Positions 10,676 to 52,680 of a DNA stretch of 64,000 nt are shown piece by piece; within the stretch, counting starts at the first letter, position 1; every line of letters begins with the position of its first letter. A program made the translations under genes and the position numbers. Origin of the DNA: Bacteroidales bacterium (lineage in GTDB: Bacteria > Bacteroidota > Bacteroidia > Bacteroidales > VadinHA17); assembly GCA_022865305.1 (NCBI GenBank), contig JALHSP010000116.1:62001-126000 (forward strand), written 5' to 3'. The notes under the pieces are model-generated. The model was not told the origin of the DNA, did no database searches, and saw only the letters and a program-made list of their open reading frames with translations.

Positions 10676-10728
10676 CCCGCAAAAACAATATAAGCACATT
10701 TACAATACACAAGCAATGAGAAAATAAA

Positions 10729-10764: not shown

Positions 10765-10890
10765 TAATCACAATCAGCTTATGCAGGGCTCTTTCCTGAA
10801 CAGATGATTGAGTGAGTTGGATACATGGCATTTAATCAGATATGATAGACCTGTAAAAATGCAGTCTGGCATTATCCTTGTAAAAAGTGC

Positions 10891-28823: not shown

Positions 28824-28842
28824 TTCGGTCTAAATTTAATTG

Positions 28843-30003: not shown

Positions 30004-30019
30004 CGTTCACAGTATATTT

Positions 30020-36056: not shown

Positions 36057-36062
36057 ACAATA

Positions 36063-38521: not shown

Positions 38522-39201
38522 TATTTCATATCCCTGTATAATAGTTCTATGTTTTTAAGTCCGTCAGCTTTTATAAGATTATGCACATAATAGATCACAC
38601 TTTCCAGTTCATCACACAGGTTGACATTGTTTATTATCACGTCAGATGGTACTTTAAGAAGTACCGGAGCAAAGTTCACTATCCCCTTTATCCCATAACG
38701 TATCAGCTCATCTGCAACCTGCTGTGCAGAAATTTCCGGCACCGCAAGAATTGCCACTTTTACCCTGAACCTGTCGATGATCTCTTTTAACCGGCTCATG
38801 GAATATACCGGTAAATCAGATCTTATTTTCTGCTTGAAAGGATCAATATCAAAAGTGGCAACAATATTCATATTACGCTGAACAAATTTGCTGTACTTCG
38901 ATAACGCAAGTCCGAGGTTCCCCATGCCTATAAGAACAATATTGTGGTCTTTGTTACGATGGAATATTGTCTCCATTTTTTCAAGCAAACAGTTAATATC
39001 ATATCCACCACGTTTATTACCCTTGATGTTGAACTCAGAAAAATCCTTTCTTACCTGGTCGGAGGTGACTCCTGTTTCATTAGCAAGTGTATAAGAAAAT
39101 ACCTTTTCAACTCCCATCATCTTCAGTCTTACAAGGCATGCCCGATATAGAAAAATCCTTTTCAGACTGTTTTTTACAATATATTTTGTGATTTGTTTCA
39201 C
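38518..39201 (-). CDS. rex: Redox-sensing transcriptional repressor Rex
   Basis: The 227-residue protein has an N-terminal winged helix (YRACLVRLKMMGVEKVFSYTLANETGVTSDQVRKDFS, about 19-54) and a Rossmann NAD(H)-binding domain with IGMGNLGLAL (about 90-99). Rex binds DNA when NAD+ is high and lets go when NADH rises, switching on fermentative genes. It heads the rex-hypFCDEAB operon and is divergent from the 19-gene [NiFe] operon, whose start region carries a matching Rex site at 39367-39386. This places the [NiFe] operon under likely NADH control. Confidence 0.93.
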   Translation of the reverse strand: MKQITKYIVKNSLKRIFLYRACLVRLKMMGVEKVFSYTLANETGVTSDQVRKDFSEFNIKGNKRGGYDINCLLEKMETIFHRNKDHNIVLIGMGNLGLALSKYSKFVQRNMNIVATFDIDPFKQKIRSDLPVYSMSRLKEIIDRFRVKVAILAVPEISAQQVADELIRYGIKGIVNFAPVLLKVPSDVIINNVNLCDELESVIYYVHNLIKADGLKNIELLYRDMKY

Positions 39202-39366
39202 ATCAAATCTTATTTAATTATTTCAATCTGCAAGTTAAATATTTTTTCAGATATAAAATAAATTTTTTAAATAATTGATATAATGCATTTTATAATATAT
39301 TTTTCAATCAGTACTTAAAAAATATTGATTTTTTATTGATTTTTATTTTCATTGAATATAATTTTA

Positions 39367-39386
39367 TATGTGAATCTTCTCACATA
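39367..39386. promoter_or_regulatory. Rex operator at the start of the [NiFe]/Mrp operon
   Basis: TATGTGA (39367-39373) and TCACATA (39380-39386) are perfect inverted arms around ATCTTC. Rex sites in many bacteria follow TTGTGA-N6-TCACAA, so the core TGTGA-N6-TCACA matches exactly. It ends one base before the ATG at 39388, suggesting that binding blocks RNA polymerase at or near the transcription start. The rex gene itself is 166 bases away. Confidence 0.78.
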
Positions 39387-39387: not shown

Positions 39388-40377
39388 ATGTATTATCTGA
39401 GCATTACTAAGGAAGAATGGGATATAGCAGTGGAACAATTGTTATTATCCTATACCATTTTCGCTCCTGTAGAAAATGAGTTTGGTCAGGATTATGAATT
39501 GATGAGACCGGCAGATATATCAAGAATATCATATAATAAACCAAAGCCAGCAACTCCCTTAAAAAATTTCTTCCTCCCGGTTAAGGAAAACGTTACAACC
39601 CAACCTCAATCTGACAAACCAAGAATTATTTTAGGTATTCCAAATTGTGATATCCAGGGACTTGGTATACTGGATGAGATCTATCTTGATAAAGATTTCA
39701 ATGATTTATACTACAGTAATCGTCGCGACAACACAATCCTGATTGCTTCCGACTGTTTTGGTATCCTCGAGCATTGCCACTGTTTATCTTATAATATTAA
39801 ACCATATTCATTTGAAAGAGCTGACATGGCAGTTATACACAGGGATGGTATGATTATATTAAGAGTCATATCGGCAAAGGGTGAAGAATTAACAAAGAAG
39901 ATCCCTCATGTACAGCCTCTCACTGACGGAACCATCATCTCGGCGATTGATACTGAACACAATAAGACGGAAGACCTGCTCAGATCATCAAACAAAGGAC
40001 TTCCGGATTATTCAAGTACTGGATCGCTGGTTAAGAAGGCAAATAATGAGATTTGGGAAAAATATTCATCTCATTGTGTATCATGCGGAGCATGTACAAC
40101 TATCTGTCCAACCTGTACATGTTTTCTTCTGATTGACAAACCAGGTTTTGAGAAAGTGAAACAGATGGATGCCTGTCAGTATCCTGGCTTTGAAAGGGTA
40201 GCCGGAGGGGAAGATGCACTTTTCGAACTTCATAACCGGTTCAGGAACAGATATATGTGTAAATATGTCTGGAAACCCGGGAAATTCAAATCTCTGGCTT
40301 GTACCGGTTGTGGTAGATGCATTGAAGCATGTATTGGTAAAATCAATAAGAATGAACTTTTTATGGAACTCGTTTAA
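39388..40377 (+). CDS. Iron-sulfur subunit resembling sulfhydrogenase beta / anaerobic sulfite reductase A
   Basis: The 329-residue protein matches the beta subunit that, with a flavin gamma subunit, forms the NAD(P)H-linked electron module of group 3b hydrogenases. The C-terminal third has two [4Fe-4S] motifs: HCVSCGACTTICPTCTC (about 230-246) and LACTGCGRCIEAC (about 307-319). Here it is the first gene of an operon whose catalytic core is a group 4 membrane hydrogenase, not a group 3b enzyme; no group 3b alpha or delta subunit is present. It likely passes electrons between the gamma subunit and the ferredoxin-like protein encoded two genes on. The Rex site adjoins its start. Confidence 0.82.
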   Translation: MYYLSITKEEWDIAVEQLLLSYTIFAPVENEFGQDYELMRPADISRISYNKPKPATPLKNFFLPVKENVTTQPQSDKPRIILGIPNCDIQGLGILDEIYLDKDFNDLYYSNRRDNTILIASDCFGILEHCHCLSYNIKPYSFERADMAVIHRDGMIILRVISAKGEELTKKIPHVQPLTDGTIISAIDTEHNKTEDLLRSSNKGLPDYSSTGSLVKKANNEIWEKYSSHCVSCGACTTICPTCTCFLLIDKPGFEKVKQMDACQYPGFERVAGGEDALFELHNRFRNRYMCKYVWKPGKFKSLACTGCGRCIEACIGKINKNELFMELV

Positions 40378-40386
40378 GAGTCTGTT

Positions 40387-41211
40387 ATGGTAAATGACAA
40401 GAACATATATAAACCTCTCAGGGCAAAACTTAAGGATGTTATTGACGAGTCACCGCTGATAAAAACACTTGTTCTTATTCCTGAAAAACAATTCTCATTT
40501 AAAACAGGTCAGTTTATCGAATTATCTGTCGATGGGATTGGCGAGGCTCCGTTTACTCCTTCTTCTTCTCCTCTTGTAACAGAAAAACTTGAAGTAACAA
40601 TTATGAAAACGGGGTACGTGACCGAATACATGCATAACCTTAAACCAGGGGTATTCATGGGGATCAGAGGACCATACGGAAGAGGCTATCCTGTTGAAAA
40701 ATTCTTCGGAAAGGAGGTATTGATTCTTGGCGGAGGCTGTGGCCTTGCCCCTATCAGGTCTCTGCTTTATGCGCTGGAGGCTATCAAGGATAAACTGATA
40801 AAGGTGATTCTCTGCTATGGATCCAAAACGCCTACCGATTGTATATATAAACCTCTCTTTAACCGTTTGAATATTACAGAGAAATTTGAAGCCTACCGTA
40901 CAGTCGACAAAGCTGAGGAGGGATGGGATGGTTCTGTGGGTGTGGTCACAACTCTGCTGAACAAAATAAAGGTTGACATAAAAAATTCTATTGCTGTTGT
41001 ATGTGGTCCTCCTATTATGATGAAATTCGGGACTATCAGGCTTCTTGAAATGGGATATCAAGAAGATCAGATCTACCTGTCCATGGAAAAGAATATGTCG
41101 TGCGGTCTCGGTAAATGCGGACATTGCATGATGGGAGAATTTTTTGTCTGCAAGGATGGACCTGTGTTTACTTATAACGAGTTAAAAAATACTCCGGATA
41201 TTTGGAAATAG
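40387..41211 (+). CDS. FAD/NAD(P)H-binding [2Fe-2S] subunit resembling sulfhydrogenase gamma
   Basis: The 274-residue protein has a ferredoxin-NADP reductase fold: a flavin-binding beta barrel in the first 100 residues, the nucleotide-binding GGGCGLAPIRSLLYAL (about 115-130), and a CGPPIMMKFG segment. A C-terminal [2Fe-2S] site CGLGKCGHCMMG with a last Cys in VCKDG follows (about 238-258). The family oxidises or reduces NAD(P)H and passes electrons to the beta subunit. It starts 9 bases after that gene. Together they form a diaphorase placed at the head of a group 4 [NiFe] operon. Whether it prefers NADH or NADPH cannot be told. Confidence 0.88.
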   Translation: MVNDKNIYKPLRAKLKDVIDESPLIKTLVLIPEKQFSFKTGQFIELSVDGIGEAPFTPSSSPLVTEKLEVTIMKTGYVTEYMHNLKPGVFMGIRGPYGRGYPVEKFFGKEVLILGGGCGLAPIRSLLYALEAIKDKLIKVILCYGSKTPTDCIYKPLFNRLNITEKFEAYRTVDKAEEGWDGSVGVVTTLLNKIKVDIKNSIAVVCGPPIMMKFGTIRLLEMGYQEDQIYLSMEKNMSCGLGKCGHCMMGEFFVCKDGPVFTYNELKNTPDIWK

Positions 41212-41251
41212 ACAAAATTTTCTGATTAAACAATTTAATCTGAATTAATTA

Positions 41252-41722
41252 ATGAAGACAGAGGGCAAGAAACTGACATCGACAGACTTTAAAAAAATAA
41301 GGTTTTTCGATCATTACACCGACAAGCAACTGGATACCATTGCGCGGATGAGCTCGGTAAAAGAATTCAGGGTGAAGGAGATTTTATTTGAACAATATGA
41401 TGAACTCTCTGATGTTTATGTTCTTCTTGAAGGATCTTTATCTCTTGGAATCAGCCTGGCAAAGGAAAAGAGAATCCATCTTGGTACTATTGAGGAGGGT
41501 CAGATGTTTTCGTGGTCTGCCGTTTTCAGTCCGTATATCTCAACTGCATGGGTGATGGCGACTACACCAGCAAAAGTCATTTCCATTGATGCAAAAACAC
41601 TTAATAAAGAAATTGAAAAAGATTGTGATTTCGGATTTAAAACGATGTCAAAAATTGCACAGACTATTTCACACCGGTTAAGTGATACAAGATTCCAGCT
41701 TATGAACCAGTTAATGTTATAA
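41252..41722 (+). CDS. Stand-alone cyclic-nucleotide-binding-like protein without DNA-binding domain
   Basis: The 156-residue protein is a single cNMP-binding-type beta-roll (about 17-125) with short flanking helices and ends at SDTRFQLMNQLML. The Crp/Fnr helix-turn-helix is missing, so it is not a classical transcription factor. The phosphate-binding cassette usually has GELA and PRxAT; here the segment reads GQMFSWSAVFSPYISTAW, without the Arg that holds the cyclic phosphate. The ligand, if any, may therefore differ from cAMP. Its place between the diaphorase and hydrogenase genes suggests an allosteric or structural subunit of the complex. That role is inferred only from position. Confidence 0.72.
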   Translation: MKTEGKKLTSTDFKKIRFFDHYTDKQLDTIARMSSVKEFRVKEILFEQYDELSDVYVLLEGSLSLGISLAKEKRIHLGTIEEGQMFSWSAVFSPYISTAWVMATTPAKVISIDAKTLNKEIEKDCDFGFKTMSKIAQTISHRLSDTRFQLMNQLML

Positions 41723-41767
41723 ATAAACAGGAACCAGACACTAATTTACCTGATTAACGAAGCTGAT

Positions 41768-42265
41768 ATGGCTCAGAAGATTCTGATAGATATGATAAAA
41801 TTAAGGGCTGCAATGGTTGAAAATTCTTCCATGGTACTGCCCGAAGCCTTATTCTATCCATCAGGCAATTCAAACGGACTGAAGAGTGTCCGTGAGCTTG
41901 CCATATTCAGGTTTACCTGCAGGAAATGTGAAGATGCACCCTGTATAGGTGTTTGTCCGGCCGATGCACTTGAAAAAGATGAAGATGGAATAATTACACG
42001 GTATACCAATCTTTGTGTATCATGCAAGTCATGTGTAACAATATGCCCTTTTGGAACAATGATGACCGATTTCTTTAAACATCACAGGAACAGGGATTTG
42101 TTTTTTGATCTTGAAGATGTAAATGAGGTCGAAAAATTTATTAAAGCCTGTCCTCCAGGTACTGTTACTTTTACTGATGATGATGAATCTCCTGAAAAAA
42201 ATATTTATAAACTTAATGATAAAGTGCTCATTAAAGAATATTTGTATATCACTGAAAAACAGTAA
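41768..42265 (+). CDS. Ferredoxin-like double [4Fe-4S] protein
   Basis: The 165-residue protein carries CRKCEDAPCIGVC (about 56-68) and LCVSCKSCVTICP (about 83-95), two [4Fe-4S] motifs of the HycB/HydN type, and a further lone Cys in ACPPGT. It probably carries electrons between the diaphorase and the hydrogenase module. It starts 45 bases after the cNMP-like gene and ends 11 bases before the membrane subunit gene. It has no signal peptide and would act on the cytoplasmic side. Confidence 0.82.
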   Translation: MAQKILIDMIKLRAAMVENSSMVLPEALFYPSGNSNGLKSVRELAIFRFTCRKCEDAPCIGVCPADALEKDEDGIITRYTNLCVSCKSCVTICPFGTMMTDFFKHHRNRDLFFDLEDVNEVEKFIKACPPGTVTFTDDDESPEKNIYKLNDKVLIKEYLYITEKQ

Positions 42266-42276
42266 ATAACACTAAT

Positions 42277-43209
42277 ATGGCGGTTAATTTGTTTTATTTC
42301 CTTGTCTTCCCCGGTCTGCTGTTTGCTGCAACAGTAGGAGCTTTCTTATCCTGGTTCGACAGGAAAATTACTGCCAGGGTACAATTCCGGAAAGGGCCGC
42401 CTTTACTGCAGCCATTTTACGATTTCTTCAAATTATTACTGGTTAAAGAGACAATATTACCAAAGCACGGATCACCTGTGATCTTTCTGCTGGCTCCTGT
42501 ACTCTCAGTTTTCGGGGCAACAACTGCCGGGATTTTTATACTCCTGCCATTATTTAATATTACTACCGGATTCAGGGGAGACCTCCTGGTTATCTTCTAC
42601 CTTCTTACAATTCCTTCATTTTCTTATATAATCGGATCTCTGGCCTCGGCCAATCCACTGGCTGCCGTGGGAGGATCCAGGGAAATGAAGCTGATCCTGA
42701 GTTACGAACTGACCTTCCTTCTTTTCATTGCCGGAGTTATTATGAAATGCGGACAGGAGTTTAACCTCTATACTATTATACAGACACAGCAGGAGGGTTC
42801 ACCTTTTATCGGAAGCATTTCCGGAGTGCTCCTGTTCATTGTCGGGATATTCTGTATACAGGCAAAACTGGCACTCGTACCGTTTGATATGCCGGAAGCT
42901 GAAGCTGAAATAACAGAAGGAATTTTCATTGAATATTCAGGAGCAGCATATGCACTTATTAAACTGGCAAAATATATCATGTTATTTATCCTGCCGGCTT
43001 TTCTTATTGCATTGTTGATGAACGGTTTCAAACTCGAAGGAATAAATATCCTTTGGGCTGTACTTAAAGTTATTATGGTTGTTCTTATTCTTACACTTAT
43101 TAGAAATACAAATCCCAGGATCAAGATCAAGCAAGCGGTTAATTTCTTCCTTATCTGGATGAACCTCCTTGCTGTTATTGCACTGGTGCTGATTGCTTTT
43201 GGTTATTAA
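42277..43209 (+). CDS. NuoH/HycD-type membrane subunit of a group 4 [NiFe]-hydrogenase
   Basis: The 310-residue protein has about eight transmembrane helices. It keeps the NuoH-family landmarks FDRKITARVQFRKGPPLLQPFYDFFKLLLVK (about 28-58) and PFDMPEAEAEITEGIFIEYSG (about 204-224), where conserved acidic residues lie along the connection between the redox module and the ion-translocating part. In Mbh-type hydrogenases this subunit anchors the soluble arm. It begins the hydrogenase core of the operon. Confidence 0.92.
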   Translation: MAVNLFYFLVFPGLLFAATVGAFLSWFDRKITARVQFRKGPPLLQPFYDFFKLLLVKETILPKHGSPVIFLLAPVLSVFGATTAGIFILLPLFNITTGFRGDLLVIFYLLTIPSFSYIIGSLASANPLAAVGGSREMKLILSYELTFLLFIAGVIMKCGQEFNLYTIIQTQQEGSPFIGSISGVLLFIVGIFCIQAKLALVPFDMPEAEAEITEGIFIEYSGAAYALIKLAKYIMLFILPAFLIALLMNGFKLEGINILWAVLKVIMVVLILTLIRNTNPRIKIKQAVNFFLIWMNLLAVIALVLIAFGY

Positions 43210-43221
43210 ATATTAGTAGTT

Positions 43222-43635
43222 GTGGGTTTTAAAGATTATTGCTTCAAAAAGTCTCTCTGGGTTTTCCACTTCGGTGGAGCATCCTGCAATAATTGCGATA
43301 TAGAGATACTGGACTGTCTGACACCAAGACACGATCTGGAACGGTTCGGTATTCTTCTGGTCGGCAGTATAAGGCACGCTGATGTCCTCCTGGTCAACGG
43401 ATCAATTAACACCCGCGATAAGGATAGACTCCTGGAGATTTATAATCAGGCTCCCAAACCCATCCTTGTCGTTGCAATAGGTGCCTGCGGCTGTACAGGA
43501 GGTATTTTCGCTGAGAGTATCACTTTTGCAGGACCAGTGGACAAGATTATACCGGTAAATGCTTATATCCCGGGATGTCCGCCAAAACCTGAAGCTATAA
43601 TTGCAGGAATTGTGAAACTGGTGAATAAGTCATAG
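43222..43635 (+). CDS. [NiFe]-hydrogenase small subunit, group 4 (NuoB/HycG-like)
   Basis: The 137-residue protein starts at GTG 43222, the only usable start before the conserved region. It has ASCNNCDIE (about 18-26), IGACGCTGG (about 90-98) and YIPGCPPKPEAI (about 114-125), which supply the four ligands of the proximal [4Fe-4S] cluster. The short length without a signal peptide is typical of cytoplasm-facing group 4 enzymes. Its stop codon overlaps a run of heptamer repeats at 43633-43705. Confidence 0.92.
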   Translation: MGFKDYCFKKSLWVFHFGGASCNNCDIEILDCLTPRHDLERFGILLVGSIRHADVLLVNGSINTRDKDRLLEIYNQAPKPILVVAIGACGCTGGIFAESITFAGPVDKIIPVNAYIPGCPPKPEAIIAGIVKLVNKS

Positions 43636-43705
43636 GTGCAAGGTGCAGGGTGCAAGATATAAGACAAAAGAACGAGGAACGAGAAACGAAAAACGCGAAA
43701 CGAGG
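43633..43705. repeat. Heptamer tandem repeats between the small-subunit and NuoC-like genes
   Basis: The 7-base units TAGGTGC, AAGGTGC and AGGGTGC (43633-43653) are followed by degenerate heptads. Five clear units of another heptamer then follow: AACGAGG, AACGAGA, AACGAAA, AACGCGA, AACGAGG (43671-43705). A matching array, AAGGTAC repeated three times, lies at 56843-56863. Insertion here separates two genes that are otherwise tightly packed in the operon. Confidence 0.65.
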
Positions 43706-43717
43706 AACATAGATACG

Positions 43718-44146
43718 ATGGTGATTATAGAAAAACTTAAAGAAAACTTCAGTTCTGACATTCTTGAGATAGTTACAAAGAATGAGAAACGAATTATTGT
43801 TACAATAAAGCCTGATTCAATAATTAATATTGCTGAATATTTATACAAAACAGCAGGACTAAGGTTTATAATTGCTTCAGCCCTGCATACTAAAAAAGGA
43901 TTTGAGATACATTATCATTTCAGTATGGATTCAACAGGACTGGTACTCAATATTCATGTTATACTTGACAAAGAGAATCCGCAGATTGAATCGCTTTCGA
44001 ATATGTTCAATGCATCAAACTGGATTGAAAGAGAGATGCATGAGCTATTCGGTATCAATTTTCTCAATCACCCCAACCAGGAGAAGCTGATATCTGATGG
44101 CAACTGGGCAGAAGGCGTTTACCCTTACAGGAAAGAGTTTAAGTAA
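43718..44146 (+). CDS. NuoC/HycE-N-type subunit of the group 4 [NiFe]-hydrogenase
   Basis: From the ATG at 43718 the protein has 142 residues. An in-frame ATG at 43643 would translate the heptamer repeats and is rejected. It has the NuoC fold and the signature WIEREMHELFGINFLNHPNQ (about 101-120), ending in VYPYRKEF. It packs between the small and large subunits. It starts 82 bases after the small subunit because of the repeat insertion and lies 16 bases before the large-subunit gene. Confidence 0.88.
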   Translation: MVIIEKLKENFSSDILEIVTKNEKRIIVTIKPDSIINIAEYLYKTAGLRFIIASALHTKKGFEIHYHFSMDSTGLVLNIHVILDKENPQIESLSNMFNASNWIEREMHELFGINFLNHPNQEKLISDGNWAEGVYPYRKEFK

Positions 44147-44162
44147 TGACCGGAGTTAAAAG

Positions 44163-45365
44163 ATGAGCAAAAAGACAATCATACCAATAGGCCCCTATCA
44201 TCCTTTGCAGGAGGAACCGGAATTATTTAAGCTGTATTGTGATGGCGAAATTGTTAAGGACATAAAATGGGAAACCGGCTATAATCACAGGAGCATAGAA
44301 AAGCTCAGTGAATCTAAAACATATGACCAGGTTTTCTTCCTGGTGGAACGTATATGCGGCATATGTTCAACTTCACATCCTTTTGCTTTTGCCAATGCTG
44401 TTGAAGAAATTGGCAATATTGAAATTACTGACAGGGCTAAATATATCAGATCGATCATTGGTGAACTGGAACGTATTCACAGTCACCTGTTATGGGTCGG
44501 ACTTGCAGGTCATTTCCTCGGATATAATACTGTTTTCATGTGGGCATGGAAATACCGCGAACCGGTTCTTGATCTGTTCGAAATGATCACCGGTAACAGG
44601 AACAGTTATGCAATGTTTAAAGTAGGAGGTGTTCGCAGGGATATTGAAAATGTTAAAATATCCATTATCCGTAAAACTCTCAGCGATATCAGGAAAAAAA
44701 CCGATCTGCTTGCAGGAGCCGTAATGGATGATCCGGTAATTCATGCCAGGACGAAAGGTGTCGGTATCCTTACCAGACAGGATGTTATTGATTATGCTGC
44801 CGTTGGTCCTACCGCAAGAGCTTCAGGAGTAGCTATCGACGTAAGAAAAGACGATCCCTATGCAGCTTATCCGTTGGTTAACTGGAAAGTAATTACAGCA
44901 CAGGCAGGTGATGTATTCGCCAAAGCAGAGGTCAGATTGCTGGAGATGTATGAATCCATTTCAATTATTGAACAGTGTCTTAATGGACTGGAAAAAGTAA
45001 AGGAGGGAGAAATCACAGTAAAGGTTAAAGAAATCCCTGAAGGAATTGGGACCGGACGTGCAGAGGCACCGAGAGGAGAAGTTTTCCATTTTGTTGTATC
45101 AGATGGTTCTAACTCGCCTGCCAGACATAAAATACGGGCTCCGAGTTATGTAAATATTGCCACATTTAAAAAATCATGCATAGGGCAGACAATTGCAGAT
45201 GCCACTATCTCGCTTGCTGCTGTCGATCCATGTTACTGCTGCACTGAACGTATGGCAGTTGCTTATGATATTAACTCAGGGAAAAGGATTATGAACGCAA
45301 ATGAGTTGATAGATTGTTCGATAATGAGAACGGCCGAAATGAAGAAAAACCTAATCAATAATTAA
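44163..45365 (+). CDS. [NiFe]-hydrogenase large subunit, group 4 (NuoD-like with intact Ni site)
   Basis: The 400-residue protein keeps both nickel motifs: RICGIC (about 62-67) and DPCYCCTER (about 357-365). This shows a working hydrogenase site rather than a complex I subunit, which has lost these cysteines. About 35 residues follow the C-terminal motif, a peptide likely removed after metal insertion by the protease encoded at 51810. Group 4 enzymes evolve or use H2 and couple this to ion transport. The gene overlaps the next by one base (TAATG). Confidence 0.93.
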   Translation: MSKKTIIPIGPYHPLQEEPELFKLYCDGEIVKDIKWETGYNHRSIEKLSESKTYDQVFFLVERICGICSTSHPFAFANAVEEIGNIEITDRAKYIRSIIGELERIHSHLLWVGLAGHFLGYNTVFMWAWKYREPVLDLFEMITGNRNSYAMFKVGGVRRDIENVKISIIRKTLSDIRKKTDLLAGAVMDDPVIHARTKGVGILTRQDVIDYAAVGPTARASGVAIDVRKDDPYAAYPLVNWKVITAQAGDVFAKAEVRLLEMYESISIIEQCLNGLEKVKEGEITVKVKEIPEGIGTGRAEAPRGEVFHFVVSDGSNSPARHKIRAPSYVNIATFKKSCIGQTIADATISLAAVDPCYCCTERMAVAYDINSGKRIMNANELIDCSIMRTAEMKKNLINN

Positions 45366-47263
45366 TGAATGAGTTTGTCTCCATAGTACCCCAGCCTTCA
45401 GTTTGCGGTCATCTGCAATTTATGATTTTATTACCCGTTATCGTTGGACTTCTGCTGTTTTTAATTCCTGATAAATACAACAGATTTAAAGGGATCTTTG
45501 CTCTGATAATAAGTGTAATTGCAGGTTATTTCACTCTTTCATTATTCACTTCAGCAATTCAGATGACTGTTCTGAACGAGATTCTTGGAAAATCCTGTCA
45601 GGCAATATTCGGTCTGGACCTCATGAAGGATTCAACCAGCTTTTTTACATTCACTATCGACAATGTAAGTAAGCTTATAATTCTTTTCATAAGCCTTTTT
45701 GCCTTCCTGATCCTGCTTTATTCAATTGCTTATATCAAAACAGGCAGAGTTAAAAACTATTATACATGGTTCCTTATTACAATTGGTTGCTCTTATGGAG
45801 CAGTTCTGTCTGATAACCTGCTGTTATTCCTGACTTTCTGGGGTATTCTTGGAATTACGCTTTACAAACTGATTCCGGGACATAATGAGGAGAGTTCAGC
45901 TACTGCCAAGAAAACCCTTATCCTTATCGGAGCTTCAGATACCATAATGATTATCGGGATCGCCCTTTTATGGAGGCTAACCGGGTCATTCAGCATGAAC
46001 TCTATATCATTGCCAACAAACAATCCTTTATCGGTTGCAGCATTCCTGGCATTGTTAGTAGGCAGTTTCACAAAAGCAGGTGCTTTCCCCTTCCACACAT
46101 GGGTTCCGGATTATGCAAAGGATGCTCCTGCCTCTTCATCTGCACTGCTGCCTGCATCGCTCGATAAACTGCTTGGCATATATTTCCTGGCAAGGATTAC
46201 GACTGATATTTTCATCCTTACAGACGGAATAAGATTACTCCTTCTTACCATAGGTGTAATCACCATCATCATTGCTGTTATGATGGCTCTCGTTCAGCAC
46301 AATTACAAACGTCTTCTCGGATTTCACGCAGTTTCACAGGTAGGATATATGATCGTCGGATTCGGACTTGGTTCACTTATCGGTATTGCCGCTGGTTTGT
46401 TCCATATGATTAATCATGCTCTTTATAAAAGCGGCCTGTTCCTTTCCGCCGGATGTATTGAGTACCGTACAGGAGAGGAAAACATCGATGAGCTGGGAGG
46501 TCTGTCAAAAGCAATGCCTGTTACATTTTTTGCGGCTCTTATTTTTGCGATGTCAATTTCCGGAGTACCTCCGTTGAATGGTTTCGCTTCAAAATGGATG
46601 ATTTACCAGGGAATTATTGATTTTGGAAGCGGTACTGGGTTAGCAAACAAACTCTGGGTAATATGGCTTGGATTAGCTGTTTTTGGATCAGCTCTGACTC
46701 TTGCCAGTTTTATTAAATTTATCGGAGGAGTTTTTCTGAGCCGCAGCAAACCAGCGCTTGAGAAAGTGCGTGAGGTACCAGCATTAATGTGGATTCCTTT
46801 AGTTGTACTTGCATTGTTCTGCATTGTTTTTGGTGTATTTGCAACAAATTTCATTGTACCCAAACTATTTATGCCGATAACAGGTGAATTTGTATTTACC
46901 GGATACTGGAATTCCACGTTTGTCTCCCTCCTTATTCTGATTTCAATTATTCTGGGAATTATTGTTTATTTCGCAACCAGCCTGAAAAAATTCAGGACAG
47001 AGGATAGTTTCATCGGAGGTGAGAAGATACAGGACAGTACAAGCTATCCGACTCCTGAATTCTATAAAACCTTCGGAGAGTTTAAGTTCTTAGCCTGGAT
47101 GTACAGGAAAGCAGAAGAAAAGTTATTCGACATTTATGATTTATCAAAGCAGTTTGTGCTATGGTTAAGTCATAAACTTAGTGAAGCTCATACCGGTGTA
47201 TTGCCGGGTTATGTTATCTGGGTCTGTGCAGGACTAATCATTATGTTGCTCATTATGATATAA
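45365..47263 (+). CDS. NuoL/MrpA-type ion-translocating membrane subunit
   Basis: The 632-residue protein has about 14-16 transmembrane helices with the antiporter-family core, including SFTKAGAFPFHTWVPDYAKDAPASSSALLPASLDK (about 236-270) and the helix-break lysine region LFHMINHALYKSGLFLSAG (about 341-359). It is the length of the MrpA N-terminal part; the rest of MrpA appears to be encoded separately by the next gene, as in Mbh complexes. It probably moves Na+ or H+ across the inner membrane. A lone large antiporter subunit joined to hydrogenase genes is typical of Mrp-linked group 4 systems. Confidence 0.88.
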   Translation: MNEFVSIVPQPSVCGHLQFMILLPVIVGLLLFLIPDKYNRFKGIFALIISVIAGYFTLSLFTSAIQMTVLNEILGKSCQAIFGLDLMKDSTSFFTFTIDNVSKLIILFISLFAFLILLYSIAYIKTGRVKNYYTWFLITIGCSYGAVLSDNLLLFLTFWGILGITLYKLIPGHNEESSATAKKTLILIGASDTIMIIGIALLWRLTGSFSMNSISLPTNNPLSVAAFLALLVGSFTKAGAFPFHTWVPDYAKDAPASSSALLPASLDKLLGIYFLARITTDIFILTDGIRLLLLTIGVITIIIAVMMALVQHNYKRLLGFHAVSQVGYMIVGFGLGSLIGIAAGLFHMINHALYKSGLFLSAGCIEYRTGEENIDELGGLSKAMPVTFFAALIFAMSISGVPPLNGFASKWMIYQGIIDFGSGTGLANKLWVIWLGLAVFGSALTLASFIKFIGGVFLSRSKPALEKVREVPALMWIPLVVLALFCIVFGVFATNFIVPKLFMPITGEFVFTGYWNSTFVSLLILISIILGIIVYFATSLKKFRTEDSFIGGEKIQDSTSYPTPEFYKTFGEFKFLAWMYRKAEEKLFDIYDLSKQFVLWLSHKLSEAHTGVLPGYVIWVCAGLIIMLLIMI

Positions 47264-47283
47264 ATAACTGAAATTTGAACTAA

Positions 47284-47811
47284 ATGGAACTGTCCATATC
47301 TATAATAACGGGTTTAATGATTTTAGGAGCATTGTACGCTATCCATGCTAAGGATCTGCTTTCATCAGTAATAGCTTGTGGCATTGTAGGATACAGTTTA
47401 GTAATATGTTTTCTCTTACTGAAAGCTCCCGACCTGGCGATTGTCCAGATTGTAGTTGATACAATAACTTTAATTATAATGGTTGCAGTTGTCCTCGACA
47501 GTTCTCGGGAGGAATCATATTCAAAGCTTGACACACATGGGTATATTTCTGCAGTAACCGGTATTTTAATGATTGTGATACTTCTCTATTTCTTTGCTAT
47601 TTCAATTCAGTCGCTTGATGTTCTTGGGAAAAGCACATTACGAATGGCAAATTATTATATTGAAGGTGCTGCGCAAAAAACAGGAAGTGCAAACCTTGTT
47701 ACTGGTGTCGTTTTTGACTTCAGGGGTTATGATACTATGGGTGAAGCAGTTGTACTTGTAACTGCTGTATTGGGTGTGCTGACAATTTTAAGATTAAAAG
47801 GAAAAAAATAA
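47284..47811 (+). CDS. MrpA C-terminal / DUF4040 and MbhE-like membrane subunit
   Basis: The 175-residue protein has five hydrophobic helices. The first half (LLSSVIACGIVGYSLVICFLLLKAPDLAIVQIVVDT) matches the DUF4040 region of MrpA. The second half (TGVVFDFRGYDTMGEAVVLVTAVLGVL) matches the MbhE/MrpB-N segment. It thus supplies the part missing from the preceding gene. It begins 20 bases after it and is followed 6 bases later by the MrpB-like gene. Confidence 0.82.
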   Translation: MELSISIITGLMILGALYAIHAKDLLSSVIACGIVGYSLVICFLLLKAPDLAIVQIVVDTITLIIMVAVVLDSSREESYSKLDTHGYISAVTGILMIVILLYFFAISIQSLDVLGKSTLRMANYYIEGAAQKTGSANLVTGVVFDFRGYDTMGEAVVLVTAVLGVLTILRLKGKK

Positions 47812-47817
47812 GTTTCC

Positions 47818-48255
47818 ATGAAAGGTATGACATTAATAGTAAAAAAGACTACTCAGCTTATCGCGGGTATGATATTCATGTATGGAATTTATGTCATAGT
47901 GCATGGTCATCTTACGCCCGGAGGAGGATTCGCCGGAGGAGTTATTATTGCGGGTTCGCTTATCCTTGTTACACTTGCCTATGGCGGTGAATTTCTGAAA
48001 CTTGTAAAAGAAGAGGCAGGGACTACCATTATTGAAAGTATGGCTACTATCATGATAATCATGATTGCCACCGCAGGTTTCTTATTCGGGACAAAGATCT
48101 TTTTTAACAATTTCCTTCCCAAGGGTGTTGTTGGACAACTCGTAAGTGCAGGTGTTTTACCTCTGTACAACATTTTTGTTGGGACCGAAGTGGCCGCATC
48201 AATATTTATAATATTTCTTTCACTAATAATCTTTAAGGAGGAGTCACCGCAATGA
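47818..48255 (+). CDS. mnhB: MrpB/MnhB-type Na+/H+ antiporter subunit
   Basis: The 145-residue protein has four transmembrane helices and the MnhB signature YVIVHGHLTPGGGFAGGVIIAGSLIL (about 22-47). It is a structural subunit of the Mrp antiporter. Its end overlaps the start of the MnhC-like gene by four bases. Confidence 0.9.
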   Translation: MKGMTLIVKKTTQLIAGMIFMYGIYVIVHGHLTPGGGFAGGVIIAGSLILVTLAYGGEFLKLVKEEAGTTIIESMATIMIIMIATAGFLFGTKIFFNNFLPKGVVGQLVSAGVLPLYNIFVGTEVAASIFIIFLSLIIFKEESPQ

Positions 48256-48590
48256 TCGCATATATAATGTGTTTCATATTATTTCTCGTGGGATTGTATG
48301 GGGTAATAACAAGGAGGAACCTGGTTAAGATAGCAGTTTCAATGTCTATAATGGAAATAAGTACATTCCTCTTCTTTGCTCTGGTGGGATATATCGACGG
48401 AGGAGTTGCACCAATAGTTGATCCCGCTGATCCTGTCAAAACTTATGTCGATCCATTACCTCAAGCCCTGGTGCTTACAGCTATTGTAATCGGACTGGCA
48501 ACAACCTCAATGCTGATGGCTATTATTATAAGGCTTTACAGAAAATACGGGACGTTTGATATCAGAGAGATAAAAAACTTAAAAGGATAA
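48252..48590 (+). CDS. mnhC: MrpC/MnhC (NuoK-like) antiporter subunit
   Basis: The 112-residue protein has three transmembrane helices and follows the MnhC pattern: LVGLYGVITRRNLVKIAVSMSIMEIS (about 12-37) and DPLPQALVLTAIVIGLATTSMLMAIIIRLYRKYG (about 67-100). It is related to NuoK of complex I. It sits between MnhB and MnhD in the usual Mrp order. Confidence 0.92.
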   Translation: MIAYIMCFILFLVGLYGVITRRNLVKIAVSMSIMEISTFLFFALVGYIDGGVAPIVDPADPVKTYVDPLPQALVLTAIVIGLATTSMLMAIIIRLYRKYGTFDIREIKNLKG

Positions 48591-48592
48591 AT

Positions 48593-50131
48593 ATGAATCC
48601 GCTGATACCATTATTTGTTGTTATTCCTCTGGCTGGAGCTTTCCTGATCATGATTATTGGAAGGTTTGTCAAAGAGTTTAACAAGTACTTTGCATCTCTG
48701 ATACTTTTTTCCCTTGCCCTAATAAGTTTCTATTTCCTTTTTATAACCCGAGAAAACTTATTTGTATATAAAGTCGGAGGTTGGGAACCAATAAATAATA
48801 TTCCTATTGGAATTTATATGGTTATGGATGGCTTCACTGCAATTGTAGTTTGTATTATAAACCTTATAGGTTTCTTATCAGCCTTTTATTCAATCTCTTA
48901 CATAAAAAGATATACTTCAGAAAACTATTTCTACGCTTTATTTTGTCTTATGATTGCCGGAATGAACGGTGTTGTAATCAGTGGTGACATTTTCAATATC
49001 TTCGTTTTCCTTGAAATTTCGGTTATATCATCCTATGCTCTTGTAGCTTTCGGAGTTGAAAAAAATGAGCTGGAGGCTTCATTCAAGTACCAGGTTTTAG
49101 GGGGACTGGCCTCATTTTTAATCCTGTTTGGAATAGGATTCCTTTACTGGAAAACCAAAACACTGAATATTGCTGATATTAAAGGAGCTTTCAGTAATGG
49201 TTATGATAAAACATATTATCTGTTTGTTCAGATACTTCTATTAAGCGGCTTTGGTCTTAAAGCAGCCATTATTCCATTCCATGCATGGTTACCTGATGCA
49301 CACTCGTCTGCTCCTTCACCAATTTCTGCAATGCTTTCAGGTGTACTTATTAAAGCAGTCGGAATTTATGTAATTATCCGACTATTTTTCAATATGTTCT
49401 TTATCAGTGAGGGGATGTCTGTCCTTATTACCACTCTTGGGACCCTTTCAATGGTAATTGGCGTTTTCCTTGCAATCGGACAATGGGATATTAAAAGACT
49501 GCTTGCCTATCACAGCATTAGTCAGATGGGCTATGTGGTTATGTCAGTCGGCATCGGAATGATGCTTATTTCAAAAGGAGTCAGAAACGAAGTTGCTGCA
49601 TTAGCCATTGCCGGTGGAATTTTCCATCTTATCAACCATGCTGCTTTTAAAGGTCTTTTATTTCTTAATGCTGGAGCAATAGAATATTCGACCGGAACCC
49701 GCGACCTCAGGGAAATGGGCGGGTTGGCAAAAGCAATGCCTGTCACTTCGGCAACATCTTTTACAGCATCTATGTCCATTTCTGGTATACCGCCCTTTAA
49801 CGGATTCTTCAGCAAGCTGATAATTATTATTGCTGCCGTAATGGCTCACTTTTATCTGTTAGCTGCCCTTGCTGCAATTGTCAGTATAATAACCCTTGCA
49901 TCCTTCCTGAAATTTCAGCGGTATGCTTTTTATAATGAGGACCCGAATAAGAAAAAGAACAGCATTAAAGAGGTTCCATTTCCCATGCTGTTTAGTATGA
50001 TTATATTAAGTATTATTTGCCTTCTGCTGAGTATGTTGGCTTTCCCCGGTATCCGGGAAGCCATACTGATGCCGGCAATTGACATTCTTATGGATCCTTC
50101 AAAGTATTCTTCACAAATAATTGGAATGTAA
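48593..50131 (+). CDS. mnhD: MrpD/MnhD-type proton-translocating antiporter subunit
   Basis: The 512-residue protein has about 14 transmembrane helices with the antiporter motifs LSGFGLKAAIIPFHAWLPDAHSSAPSPISAMLSGVL (about 215-250) and GIFHLINHAAFKGLLFLNAGAI (about 342-363). Conserved lysines and a glutamate in these helices form the ion path. It is the second large antiporter-like subunit of the operon besides the NuoL/MrpA protein, so the complex has two channels of this type. Confidence 0.92.
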   Translation: MNPLIPLFVVIPLAGAFLIMIIGRFVKEFNKYFASLILFSLALISFYFLFITRENLFVYKVGGWEPINNIPIGIYMVMDGFTAIVVCIINLIGFLSAFYSISYIKRYTSENYFYALFCLMIAGMNGVVISGDIFNIFVFLEISVISSYALVAFGVEKNELEASFKYQVLGGLASFLILFGIGFLYWKTKTLNIADIKGAFSNGYDKTYYLFVQILLLSGFGLKAAIIPFHAWLPDAHSSAPSPISAMLSGVLIKAVGIYVIIRLFFNMFFISEGMSVLITTLGTLSMVIGVFLAIGQWDIKRLLAYHSISQMGYVVMSVGIGMMLISKGVRNEVAALAIAGGIFHLINHAAFKGLLFLNAGAIEYSTGTRDLREMGGLAKAMPVTSATSFTASMSISGIPPFNGFFSKLIIIIAAVMAHFYLLAALAAIVSIITLASFLKFQRYAFYNEDPNKKKNSIKEVPFPMLFSMIILSIICLLLSMLAFPGIREAILMPAIDILMDPSKYSSQIIGM

Positions 50132-50132
50132 A

Positions 50133-50618
50133 ATGAGATATGTAGCAGTATTCATATTATCCCTGATATTCTGGTTACTTTTAACCTTCAGATTCACTGT
50201 TCCGAACCTGATTGTCGGGTCTGTTGCAGCAGTAATTTGTTCAGCTATTTTTGCCAGGTATTATTTTCATAACGTTTATAAGTTTCTACAACCACACCGT
50301 TATTTCTGGTTTATCATTTACCTTTTCATTTTCGTCTGGGAATGCATTAAAGCTAATTTTGACGTTGCTTACAGGGTACTTCACCCAGCAATGCCAATTA
50401 GGCCCGGAATAGTGAAGGTTAAAACCACTTTAAAATCTGATTTTGCAAAAATGCTGCTTGCAAATTCAATTACGATGACACCCGGGACGATCTCAGTCGA
50501 TATTATTGATGACAATCTTTTTATACATTGGATCTATATCAGGTCAGAAGATCCTGAAGTTTATACAGGAATGATTACGGGAGCATTTGAAAAGTATATT
50601 AAAAGGATAATAGAATGA
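50133..50618 (+). CDS. mnhE: MrpE/MnhE antiporter subunit
   Basis: From the ATG at 50133 the protein has 161 residues. A TTG four codons upstream overlaps mnhD and is less likely. Two N-terminal hydrophobic segments, including FRFTVPNLIVGSVAAVICSAIFARYYF, precede a soluble domain with LLANSITMTPGTISVDIIDDNLFIHWI (about 110-137), the MnhE signature. Its stop overlaps the next start (ATGA). Confidence 0.9.
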   Translation: MRYVAVFILSLIFWLLLTFRFTVPNLIVGSVAAVICSAIFARYYFHNVYKFLQPHRYFWFIIYLFIFVWECIKANFDVAYRVLHPAMPIRPGIVKVKTTLKSDFAKMLLANSITMTPGTISVDIIDDNLFIHWIYIRSEDPEVYTGMITGAFEKYIKRIIE

Positions 50619-50881
50619 GTGATTACCTGAACATATTGCTGTACGTCCAGATTGGATTAAGCGTAATCTGCCTCTACAGGATAATCAGAGGACCAACAAT
50701 TCCTGACAGAATGGTTGGAGTTGATATTTTTGGGATTCTTGTTGTCGGTGTTTGCGCTATTATTTCAATACAAACTGAAAGATCCTTTATTCTTGATATT
50801 GGGATAGCTTGGATAATACTAAGTTTCATAGGAACTCTGACTTTGGCTAAATATTTAACCGGTAAAAAACTCAATGAATAA
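50615..50881 (+). CDS. mnhF: MrpF/MnhF antiporter subunit
   Basis: The 88-residue protein has three transmembrane helices and the family segment YRIIRGPTIPDRMVGVDIFGILVVG (about 21-45). It overlaps its neighbours by 4 bases upstream and 8 bases downstream, as is common in Mrp operons. Confidence 0.9.
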   Translation: MSDYLNILLYVQIGLSVICLYRIIRGPTIPDRMVGVDIFGILVVGVCAIISIQTERSFILDIGIAWIILSFIGTLTLAKYLTGKKLNE

Positions 50882-51200
50882 TATGATAAGTCTGATATTC
50901 ATAACGATCGGAATTACTTTTAACCTGTTAGGGTGTATTGGAATAATCAGGCTTCCTGATACTTATAACAGGCTTCAGGCAGCAACAAAATGTGTGACCC
51001 TTGGTTGCTGCAGCATCCTTCTTGGCGTTTGTTTTCATTTTGGATTCAGTGATGCAGGTATTAAAGCCCTTGTTGCAATACCTATACTATTTTTTGCTTC
51101 CACAGTGGGAGCACATGCCCTGATCAGAGGAACTTACCATTTTGGGATTAAGCTTGGAGAAAGAAGTATTAAAGATGATTATAAAGAAGCTGTAAAATGA
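50874..51200 (+). CDS. mnhG: MrpG/MnhG antiporter subunit
   Basis: The 108-residue protein has three transmembrane helices and the MnhG pattern LLGCIGIIRLPDTYNRLQAATKCVTLG (about 18-44), followed by SDAGIKALVAIPILFFASTVGAHALIRGTY. It completes the Mrp set (A, B, C, D, E, F, G) in this operon. Confidence 0.9.
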   Translation: MNNMISLIFITIGITFNLLGCIGIIRLPDTYNRLQAATKCVTLGCCSILLGVCFHFGFSDAGIKALVAIPILFFASTVGAHALIRGTYHFGIKLGERSIKDDYKEAVK

Positions 51201-51817
51201 AGTATCCAAAGATCAGAGAATTGAAGGAGGCCATCATTTCACTCGTTTCCCCGGCTTACACTTCAAAATTTCCAGCTGAGCCTCATATTCCTTTTGAGAA
51301 TTTCAGGGGTAAGCCAGTTGTTGATGATGAAAATTGCGTTGGATGCGAAACTTGCGCTAATGTCTGTCCCCCAATGGCGATAACCAATACTGATGATAAA
51401 GAAAAAGGAATAAGGATAATAAAAAGAGATTATGGGAAATGTATCTTTTGCGGACAATGCCAGGAACACTGCATAACACAGAAAGGTGTGAAATTATCAG
51501 ATAAGATCTTCGATATGGCAGTATTTGAAAGAGAAAAGTGTGTTGAATATCAGGAAAAAGAGCTGCTGATATGTGAAAGCTGCAATGCTGTTATTACCAC
51601 AAAAGAACATCTTCATTATATGCACAGGAAGCTTGGTCCGAAAGCATTTTCCTCAATACTTAATCTCAACCTCCTCAATCAGAAATTAAAGCTGGCAGAA
51701 GGACAGGATGTTGATGTTGAGATAAAGGATGACCTGAAAAGAAAAGATATGTTCAATATCATTTGTCCGAACTGCCTGAGACAAATCCAAGTAAAATACT
51801 TATATAAAGGTGTTTAA
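51197..51817 (+). CDS. HycF/MbhN-like [4Fe-4S] subunit with an added zinc-ribbon-like tail
   Basis: The 206-residue protein has two [4Fe-4S] motifs, CVGCETCANVCPP (about 48-60) and CIFCGQCQEHC (about 85-95). These are the NuoI-type clusters that bring electrons to the hydrogenase small subunit. A longer C-terminal region adds CESC (about 126-129) and CPNC (about 194-197), probably a zinc site. That tail resembles extended group 4 subunits rather than plain NuoI. It overlaps mnhG by four bases and the protease gene by eight. Confidence 0.85.
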   Translation: MKYPKIRELKEAIISLVSPAYTSKFPAEPHIPFENFRGKPVVDDENCVGCETCANVCPPMAITNTDDKEKGIRIIKRDYGKCIFCGQCQEHCITQKGVKLSDKIFDMAVFEREKCVEYQEKELLICESCNAVITTKEHLHYMHRKLGPKAFSSILNLNLLNQKLKLAEGQDVDVEIKDDLKRKDMFNIICPNCLRQIQVKYLYKGV

Positions 51818-52277
51818 GGACCTGGATAACCTTCTGTCTAAAAAGGAAAAGAAAATACTCTTTGTCGGAATAGGAAATCTCCTTAAAATGGATGATGGTG
51901 TAGGTGTTTATATAACCAGAAAAATAAAGAACAGAATCAATCTTTCATCCCTTATTGTAGAAGCCAGTATTGAAAACTATATTGGTAAGATAAACACCCT
52001 GAATCCTGATATACTTGTACTCATCGATTGTATGGATCTGGGATCAGCTGCAGGAACCTTTAAATTACTGCCATTAAGCCAGATACAGGATACGACTTTT
52101 AATACTCACAATATATCACTTAAACGGTTATCCGAGTTTTTTGCAATGCCGGTTTTTATACTGGGAATCCAACCAGAAAAAATTGGTTTTGGTGAAAATA
52201 TTTCCTACCTTGTAAAGAATATTGCCGACAAAATTATTAAAAACATAAACAAACAGGAGGTAAATCATGGCTGTTGA
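51810..52277 (+). CDS. HycI-type hydrogenase maturation protease
   Basis: The 155-residue protein starts at GTG 51810 within the previous gene. It has FVGIGNLLKMDDGVGVY (about 14-30) with the first metal-binding acid, LIDCMDLGSAAGTF (about 71-84) with the second, and the histidine in FNTHNISL (about 93-100). Such proteases read the nickel state of the large subunit and then remove its C-terminal peptide. The large subunit at 44163 has about 35 residues beyond its last Ni motif, so it is the natural substrate. Confidence 0.88.
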   Translation: MFKDLDNLLSKKEKKILFVGIGNLLKMDDGVGVYITRKIKNRINLSSLIVEASIENYIGKINTLNPDILVLIDCMDLGSAAGTFKLLPLSQIQDTTFNTHNISLKRLSEFFAMPVFILGIQPEKIGFGENISYLVKNIADKIIKNINKQEVNHGC

Positions 52278-52680
52278 ATATTTATGCAAAATTTGCCGGG
52301 GACATTTAAATGTAAAAACTTCAATTGTCCTTGCTGCTTCAAAAGTTAACAGTTCCAAAAGAGGATTGATCTTTCTAAATCCCGAGATCGGGAACTACCT
52401 GACCACAACACATCCTACTTTCAAGATTGAAGAAGGTGCAGAATACACCTATACCTGCCCTATTTGTCATTCACAGTTAAATAGTGCCAAGTACAATCAC
52501 CTGGTAAGAATAATAATGATTGATGAGGAAGGAAAGGAGTTTAACATTTATTTTTCGGGTATAGCCGGTGAAAAATGTACTTATAAGATAAGGGGCACCA
52601 GGATTGAGAAACAAGGACCTGATGCTGACCTGTACGACAAGTACTTTGATGTACCGGAAGAAGACCGGAAATACCTTTAA
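52267..52680 (+). CDS. Zinc-ribbon-like protein of unknown function at the end of the [NiFe] operon
   Basis: I do not recognise this 137-residue protein. It has two CxxC knuckles, CKIC (7-10) and CPIC (about 60-63), set up as a split zinc ribbon. The beta-rich C-terminal part contains FNIYFSGIAGEKCTYKIRG and an acidic end (DLYDKYFDVPEEDRKYL). No membrane segment or signal peptide is present. It overlaps the protease gene by 11 bases, so it is cotranscribed with the hydrogenase and could be an assembly factor or a small accessory subunit. That role is inference. Confidence 0.6.
   Translation: MAVEYLCKICRGHLNVKTSIVLAASKVNSSKRGLIFLNPEIGNYLTTTHPTFKIEEGAEYTYTCPICHSQLNSAKYNHLVRIIMIDEEGKEFNIYFSGIAGEKCTYKIRGTRIEKQGPDADLYDKYFDVPEEDRKYL

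Follow-up and report, generated by a model that had tools for sequence, protein, structure and literature searches.

A predicted NADH-linked group 4 [NiFe]-hydrogenase with a sulfhydrogenase-type diaphorase pair and a complete Mrp module

A diaphorase pair beside a group 4 [NiFe]-hydrogenase

Which electron carrier serves a membrane-bound [NiFe]-hydrogenase whose genes are strung behind those for an NAD(P)H diaphorase? The question is raised by an operon at positions 39388-52680 (+ strand) of a 64,000-nucleotide stretch of DNA from a Bacteroidales bacterium (contig JALHSP010000116.1 of assembly GCA_022865305.1; hereafter the window). The operon encodes relatives of the beta and gamma subunits of sulfhydrogenases, a HycB-like ferredoxin, a group 4 [NiFe]-hydrogenase core, a complete Mrp module, a HycF-like subunit, and accessory proteins. 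An initial annotation, made from the sequence alone, had proposed that NAD(P)H, and not only ferredoxin, exchanges electrons with an ion-pumping hydrogenase here. The parts carry their cofactor motifs and are encoded in a single gene string, which is conserved across phyla; this linkage supports the proposal, which we refine to NADH, with the electron transfer itself inferred. We consider it probable that the gene products form a single membrane complex, a reversible "NADH-hydrogenlyase" equipped with an Mrp pump.

The window belongs to a 4.98-Mb draft genome (completeness 99.46%), whose nearest named relatives by large subunit, among the matches listed, are uncultured Bacteroidales. All 19 annotated open reading frames (ORFs) were found, in one direction and tightly packed (18 spacings of -11 to +45 bp), and a transketolase gene starts 147 bp after the last one. 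The string opens with beta (39388-40377; Fer4_22), a 4Fe-4S electron-transfer subunit, and gamma (40387-41211), an FAD/NAD(P)H diaphorase with FAD/NAD-binding and dihydroorotate dehydrogenase B (DHODB)-type 2Fe-2S domains and conserved cofactor residues. Next come a protein with a cyclic nucleotide (cNMP)-binding domain (41252-41722; PF00027) and a HydN/HycB-like ferredoxin with a Fer4 dicluster domain (41768-42265; mean predicted local distance difference score of the model, 85), our proposed adaptor; the domain matches bear out the annotation of both. The core comprises a NuoH/MbhM/HycD-like membrane anchor (42277-43209; NADHdh, PF00146), a NuoB/MbhJ/HycG-like small subunit (43222-43635; Oxidored_q6, PF01058) with Cys 22, 25, 89, and 119 in 77 of 77 aligned rows, a NuoC/MbhK-like subunit (43643-44146; Complex1_30kDa, PF00329), and the large subunit (44163-45365; Complex1_49kDa, PF00346, and PF00374; 6cfw_L, E 4.9e-83), in which the annotated RICGIC and DPCYCC motifs are both intact. 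The first ~25 residues of the NuoC-like ORF resemble spurious translation, and its true start probably lies later.

The Mrp module, described earlier as MrpA-G, is complete by Pfam, with MrpA in two parts: a 632-aa antiporter-like subunit (MbhH or N-terminal part of MrpA; 45365-47263; Proton_antipo_M, PF00361) and a DE protein (MbhD+MbhE or C-terminal part of MrpA; 47284-47811; PF13244, PF20501). These are followed by MrpB (47818-48255; MnhB, PF04039), MrpC (48252-48590; Oxidored_q2, PF00420), MrpD (48593-50131; Proton_antipo_M, PF00361), MrpE (50121-50618; MNHE, PF01899), MrpF (50615-50881; PF04066), and MrpG (50874-51200; MnhG, PF03334). The operon closes with a HycF/NuoI-like ferredoxin that has a C-terminal Cys quartet (51197-51817; Fer4; PRK12387, the formate hydrogenlyase iron-sulfur subunit family, E 1.9e-29, under its cut-off), a HycI-type maturation protease (51810-52277; PF01750; TIGR00072 above its cut-off), and a conserved 137-aa protein (52267-52680).

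The description of beta and gamma as typical of group 3b sulfhydrogenases holds at the family level: they match the corresponding subunits of Pyrococcus furiosus sulfhydrogenase I (9nez_B, E 4.9e-33; 9nez_C, E 6.2e-48). However, their scores (e.g., 143 of 690 bits; AsrA, 117.5 of 323; AsrB, 201.9 of 288.6) stay far under the cut-offs curated for the equivalog models of sulfhydrogenase and AsrA/AsrB, so "sulfhydrogenase-like" is valid at the family level only, and an AsrABC identity is ruled out. As the annotation had stated, group 3b alpha is missing: a PF00374 search of the draft genome found none, the window's large subunit being its only PF00374 and only PF00346 protein, and a group 3b hydrogenase with a missing alpha is thereby ruled out. 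The claim on delta stands for the operon, where none of the 19 genes encodes it; the remaining genome was not searched for delta.

Nothing in a scan of the window splits beta-gamma from the core; the annotation had named such a split as speaking against its proposal. Terminator-like sites (12 in total versus 10.5 in shuffles) are absent between gamma and the ferredoxin gene, as are promoter-like sites on the + strand, whose total in the window, 59, is somewhat above that in shuffles (45.6, sd 6.3). The gaps on both sides of the cNMP gene measure 40-45 bp, and together with the absent terminator-like site they rule out beta-gamma as a separate operon. The cNMP protein was ruled out as a core component because only 9/35 Bacteroidota loci and 0/28 other loci carry its gene, which is thus an optional member.

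Beta and gamma accompany the core across phyla

Homologous operons carry the pair as a rule and do not, as the annotation had considered, usually lack it. A large-subunit search of 98 genomes, the window's own included, gave 35 with a full-length copy (79-100% identity) and four more with pieces. We took 33 clade loci from this set at length, and all 28 with at least 4.3 kb upstream have beta and gamma. A scan of named genomes with the large-subunit alignment yielded the best 80 of 571 confirmed loci, which are 63-91% identical and biased to close relatives; 17 with less than 4.3 kb upstream were excluded, and the loci L033-L069, 16 of 37 of which coincide with named loci, were counted apart and not added to the remaining 63. 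Beta-gamma lies directly upstream of the core in 61 of these 63 loci, a ferredoxin match is present in 63/63, and gamma is found in 6/6 further named loci with 2.7-4.3 kb upstream. By phylum, as labeled in record titles and with the proviso that bins may contain foreign contigs, the 61 comprise Bacteroidota (34/35), Omnitrophota (14/14), Cloacimonadota (3/3), Elusimicrobiota (2/2), Bacillota (2/2), Actinomycetota, Desantisbacteria, and Fibrobacterota (1/1 each), and unassigned loci (3/3), with Nitrospirota at 0/1. In the Nitrospirota exception (L135), three inserted genes separate the ferredoxin gene from beta-gamma, which lies on the same strand. The other exception, L103, has a 100-N gap at the place of ferredoxin and beta-gamma and another in the DE region; neither it nor the Omnitrophota locus L199, which consists of N upstream, was used as evidence for beta-gamma loss.

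Because the named set is biased to close relatives, we added 145 genomes from the phylum of the Omnitrophica WOR_2 bacterium (G098) that carries locus L141. Large-subunit matches in these genomes fall into bands of 57-67% identity (the clade, 31 places), 44-47% (18 places), and 40% or less. Fetched were 30 clade loci (all but L141), 18 of the 44-47% type, and three at 40%. Five of the clade loci are short of upstream DNA and one (L199) is unreadable; the pair is present in 24 of the 25 with at least 4.3 kb upstream, the 25th being L199, and hence in 24/24 readable loci, of which 23 lie outside the named set. At the same upstream length, beta-gamma was found in 0/16 loci of the 44-47% type and 0/3 of the 40% type.

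Of the 49 loci whose downstream sequence extends to at least 7.2 kb, 47 carry the full set of eight Mrp-type parts; L103 and L142 do not. Locus L142 carries tandem group 4 clusters (2751-11113), one ~46% identical, the other of the beta-gamma type and without Mrp genes downstream.

In a quick maximum-likelihood tree of the large subunit, 76 clade rows group together at 99% support (Shimodaira-Hasegawa-like approximate likelihood ratio test), apart from HycE, three ~46% rows, and MbhL, which is represented by a single row. The outgroup branches are very long, so the outgroup order was not used and only the 76-row clade is relied on. Tree-distance correlations over 58 loci are 0.91 between beta and the large subunit, 0.825 between gamma and the large subunit, and 0.88 for the core pair of large and small subunits; they are confounded by shared species history and count as minor evidence.

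Conserved cofactor sites and a proposed formate hydrogenlyase-like arm

The cofactor sites of the electron-input proteins are nearly invariant among aligned copies, short or interrupted ones excluded. In gamma, the four 2Fe-2S Cys and the GG and GPP motifs are kept in 68/68 rows. Asp174 is kept in 67/68, where the NADPH-linked sulfhydrogenase I gamma has Thr; PyrK of the NAD-linked DHODB has an Asp near the equivalent position. In cytochrome b5 reductase, an acidic residue at the corresponding position favors NADH. In beta, 15 Cys are kept in 62/62 rows and a sixteenth in 50/62, and all 16 are common to sulfhydrogenase I beta.

The adaptor ferredoxin, which matches HycB (7z0s_B) in sequence, keeps eight Cys in at least 72 of 73 rows. 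Among 29 chosen relatives, Cys also occupies eight further alignment columns, each in 13-19 copies, pointing to two additional clusters in those proteins; the window copy has one of these Cys. The quartet of the HycF-like subunit (Cys 126, 129, 190, and 193) is kept in 49, 49, 48, and 47 of 49 rows. According to the published account of the Escherichia coli formate hydrogenlyase (FHL) structure, a HycF C-terminal extension with such a quartet touches HycB, and HycB and HycF relay electrons from the input enzyme (PMC9474812). Given this contact, we read the soluble arm of the window complex as FHL-like, with beta-gamma replacing FdhF.

By analogy, the operon layout resembles formate hydrogenlyase with another input enzyme as much as it resembles Mbh. 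FHL-1 (group 4a; PDB: 7z0s) shares the HycB-like adaptor, the HycF-like subunit with its C-terminal quartet, and the HycG/HycE/HycD-type core, but its input is FdhF, whereas that of the window is an NAD(P)H diaphorase pair, and it has the antiporter-like HycC where the window has a full Mrp module. None of the 19 operon genes encodes an FdhF-type subunit. Pyrococcus Mbh (group 4d, ferredoxin-coupled and Mrp-linked; PDB: 6cfw) likewise joins a group 4 [NiFe] core to an Mrp-type membrane module, whereas the window operon has a dedicated input enzyme, with beta-gamma and the adaptor upstream; to our knowledge, Mbh takes its electrons from free ferredoxin and lacks beta-gamma. The group 3b NADP-linked hydrogenases, such as sulfhydrogenase I (PDB: 9nez), have homologous beta and gamma with shared Cys ligands; unlike them, the window operon lacks alpha and delta, includes a membrane ion module, and has Asp for Thr at the nucleotide site.

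Predicted Rex operators precede many of the operons

Rex is a repressor that senses the NADH/NAD+ ratio. A rex gene (38518-39201, - strand; PF06971 and PF02629; NCBIfam Rex, 217.7 bits versus a cut-off of 138) lies divergent from the operon, and two exact Rex-type palindromes mark both ends of the 186-bp intergenic region: TGTGATTTGTTTCACA (39187-39202) at the rex start and TGTGAATCTTCTCACA (39369-39384), which ends 3 bp before the beta ATG and recurs in relatives. The consensus given in a published study of Rex is TTGTGAANNNNTTCACAA (PMC6391272). The window locus thus has the features of a Rex regulon, a rex gene and a predicted TTGTGANNNNNNTCACAA-like operator near the operon start.

In 33 of 62 loci (19/34 in Bacteroidota, the window included, and 14/28 in other phyla), the 120 bp before beta contain the exact TGTGAN6TCACA core; dinucleotide shuffles average 0.0, and 1 of 925 other ORF upstream regions in the same loci contains it. 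The 62 are those of 68 beta loci that remain after dropping L079, L086, L098, L115, L116, and L127, whose contigs start less than 130 bp from beta; loci within a phylum are related, so the 33 sites are not independent events. In the Omnitrophota set, an exact site anywhere in the stretch is present in 5/30 clade loci, all 31-58 bp before beta, versus 0/18 loci of the 44-47% type. The rex gene is adjacent and divergent in 23/32 Bacteroidota loci with at least 5.3 kb upstream, and upstream and co-directional in L123, L124, L130, and L136; Rex homologues (35-41% identity) are co-directional upstream in six fetched Omnitrophota clade loci. A Rex N-terminal domain was found in five of eight genomes queried.

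In L123, L124, and L130, rex and the operon are preceded by a co-directional formate-dehydrogenase-like gene. The one in L124 has a NuoG-like N-terminus and is accompanied by MobA-like and FdhD genes. Given this placement, some relatives may accept formate too.

Proposed mechanism and energetics

In the proposed complex, the subunits would dock physically, and the FAD of gamma would trade two electrons with NAD(H). Electrons would run from the gamma 2Fe-2S center to the beta 4Fe-4S clusters, on to the HycB-like adaptor, the HycF-like subunit, and the NuoB-like small subunit, and finally to the [NiFe] site, where H+ and H2 would be interconverted. With the core anchored on a complete Mrp-type module, turnover would be coupled to H+ or Na+ movement. 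Rex sites and gamma Asp174 make NADH more likely as the nucleotide than NADPH. Since NADH is a weak reductant, its usual role would be to get rid of surplus NADH in the form of H2, drawn by low H2 or driven by an inward ion flow. Rex would turn the operon on at high NADH/NAD+, and this relief of repression would fit a role as an NADH sink. In the reverse direction, high H2 could let the reduction of NAD+ by H2 drive ion export.

If this is right, the clade would have a route between NADH and H2 that does without ferredoxin, open to anaerobes of several phyla, with H2 formation from NADH paid for by the ion gradient. Models of fermentation and H2 exchange would then change for uncultured anaerobes, among them Bacteroidales, Cloacimonadota, and Omnitrophota. 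Within the complex I superfamily, the clade would offer an independent case of a hydrogenase-Mrp complex that acquired an NADH module, joined on through an FHL-type adaptor. Like the proposed complex, respiratory complex I is an ion-moving member of this superfamily that takes in NADH where its Fe-S wire ends; in the window, by contrast, the NADH module is not NuoEFG, and a nickel site stands in place of the quinone site. We tentatively entertain, at somewhat less than even chances, a broader proposition: that the clade represents a second, independent "complex I" solution, a widespread ion-translocating NADH:proton oxidoreductase in which a sulfhydrogenase-type NADH module sits via an FHL-type adaptor on an Mrp-linked [NiFe] core. 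An ion gradient would push NADH electrons onto protons, or H2 would make NADH and a gradient, with Rex placing the enzyme under direct NADH/NAD+ control.

Several observations weigh against the NADH-hydrogenlyase. NADH oxidation to H2 (computed for pH 7 and NADH/NAD+ of 1) costs 18.1 kJ/mol at 1 bar H2 and is in balance near 100 Pa; the most favorable case computed, 1 Pa, gives -10.4 kJ/mol, probably too little for ion export. Ion export powered by H2 formation from NADH is therefore unlikely, except perhaps at very low H2, and this direction may instead draw down the gradient. The choice of NADH over NADPH draws on one residue and on Rex, and the sole b5 reductase aligned (2eix) has Asn, not an acidic residue, at the Asp174 position. 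No exact Rex site lies near beta in 29/62 loci, L168, of the 44-47% type, also has a Rex-like match downstream, and the genomes of L141 and L146 carry an exact operator before beta, yet no Rex N-terminal domain was found in them. The window's adaptor, with eight conserved Cys for two clusters, falls short of the four clusters of HycB, and a fold search with the adaptor model gave weak, partial matches only, including HycB (7z0s_B), at a template modeling score of about 0.3. The gap between gamma and ferredoxin exceeds 150 bp in 14/63 loci, partly owing to the cNMP gene. Finally, beta-gamma relatives also accompany other enzymes, such as an HdrA-like protein in L068.

At L068 (5289-10409), beta- and gamma-like genes come after one for an HdrA-like flavoprotein/polyferredoxin, and a Nuo-type cluster lies divergent from them; this arrangement is another use of the beta-gamma module.

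Alternative readings of the operon

Ferredoxin could enter the scheme in two ways. In a confurcating hydrogenase, NADH and reduced ferredoxin would be needed jointly for H2, and the surplus energy would export ions. Two ferredoxins at -500 mV would indeed give -16.6 kJ/mol at 1 bar H2 and -45.2 kJ/mol at 1 Pa (computed), the genome encodes RnfC and RnfB, a trimeric [FeFe] hydrogenase with a NuoF-like subunit is encoded nearby, and the HycF-like subunit shares its family with the NuoI-like subunit of Mbh, the ferredoxin-entry side of that enzyme. We nevertheless regard confurcation as unlikely: gamma is the only apparent flavin-binding protein among the 19 genes, we know of no bifurcation by its relatives in sulfhydrogenase I, and the adaptor may cover the ferredoxin-entry site. 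Alternatively, the enzyme could be a plain ferredoxin-fed, Mrp-linked hydrogenase, co-transcribed with beta-gamma as a separate soluble ferredoxin:NAD(P)H oxidoreductase. In HydDB and in genome papers, group 4g is described as putatively ferredoxin-coupled (PMC5037454, PMC8542988, PMC11257099), and Rex governs a ferredoxin-dependent NiFe hydrogenase in Caldicellulosiruptor bescii (PMC6391272), so that Rex is not proof of NADH as the substrate and the C. bescii case counts against our assignment as well. However, near-invariant linkage over several phyla contrasts with its absence from all 16 loci of the 44-47% type with enough upstream DNA, the HycF-type quartet and HycB-like adaptor are both present, and beta co-varies with the core about as strongly as core subunits do mutually; we judge this reading quite unlikely.

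Two further alternatives concern the substrate. With NADPH as the nucleotide, as in P. furiosus sulfhydrogenase I, the complex would balance NADPH and not NADH. The closest solved relative of gamma is indeed that of sulfhydrogenase I, but Asp replaces its Thr at position 174, PyrK has an Asp nearby, and Rex operators precede more than half of the operons in the 62 loci, which leaves NADPH improbable. Reduction of sulfur, polysulfide, or sulfite by H2 or NADH, along the lines of sulfhydrogenase or Asr, is suggested by the nearest named families of beta and gamma, sulfhydrogenase beta/gamma and AsrA/AsrB. It is very improbable: both proteins score far under the cut-offs of those families, the genome lacks a detectable group 3b alpha, and none of the 19 genes encodes a siroheme subunit, the remaining genome not having been searched for AsrC.

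Relation to published clusters

The NADH-hydrogenlyase reading departs from the label under which Mrp-linked hydrogenases of several of these phyla have been published, in that gene order predicts NADH as the partner for the clade, as opposed to the putative ferredoxin coupling of 4g. The 4g label itself comes from papers on related phyla and not from classifying the window protein. HydDB lists the role of 4g as undetermined, putatively ferredoxin-coupled (PMC5037454); Mrp-linked 4g hydrogenases are described in Cloacimonadota and Omnitrophota, with ferredoxin assumed as the donor for the 4g-type Mbh of Cloacimonadota (PMC8542988), and a 4g hydrogenase is described in Endomicrobium, with 4g presumed ferredoxin-dependent (PMC11257099).

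The annotation knew of no beta-gamma pair in Mbh and Mbx complexes. Beside a group 4 core the pair is not entirely new: a published Saganbacteria cluster (RX5A) combines a group 4 core and Mrp with cooF-like, asrA-like, and asrB-like genes (PMC6349859). It is a single case and, unlike the window operon, also carries a molybdopterin oxidoreductase. It was termed "enigmatic" and compared with Mbh, with Omnitrophica among its nearest relatives, and the passages of that account devoted to the cluster contain neither an NADH assignment nor a Rex link (PMC6349859). In the literature covered by our search, outside which subscription papers and supplements lie, we found no report assigning NADH to the clade or noting its Rex control.

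Neighboring genes and minor observations

Divergent from the operon, beyond rex, lie hypF, hypC, hypD, hypE-like, hypA, and hypB-like genes. The maturation genes hypE-like (AIRS domains), hypD, hypC, and hypF occupy 33967-38509 (- strand). Among them, hypD (34971-36056, - strand), which is required for NiFe maturation, is broken by one in-frame stop, either a sequencing error or decay.

The 137-aa protein at the end of the operon has no Pfam or NCBIfam match, and a fold search with it gave no match at E <= 0.001. It has two CxxC motifs, with C7, C10, C64, and C67 invariant in 19 rows, and is present in 21/80 named loci, many of which end before its position.

[FeFe] hydrogenases also occur in the genome. 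One of them is encoded in the window, ~9 kb from the NiFe operon (27039-30484, - strand); it is trimeric (HydA, NuoF-like, and NuoE-like), and its HydA scores above the NCBIfam cut-off for the NADH-dependent group A6.

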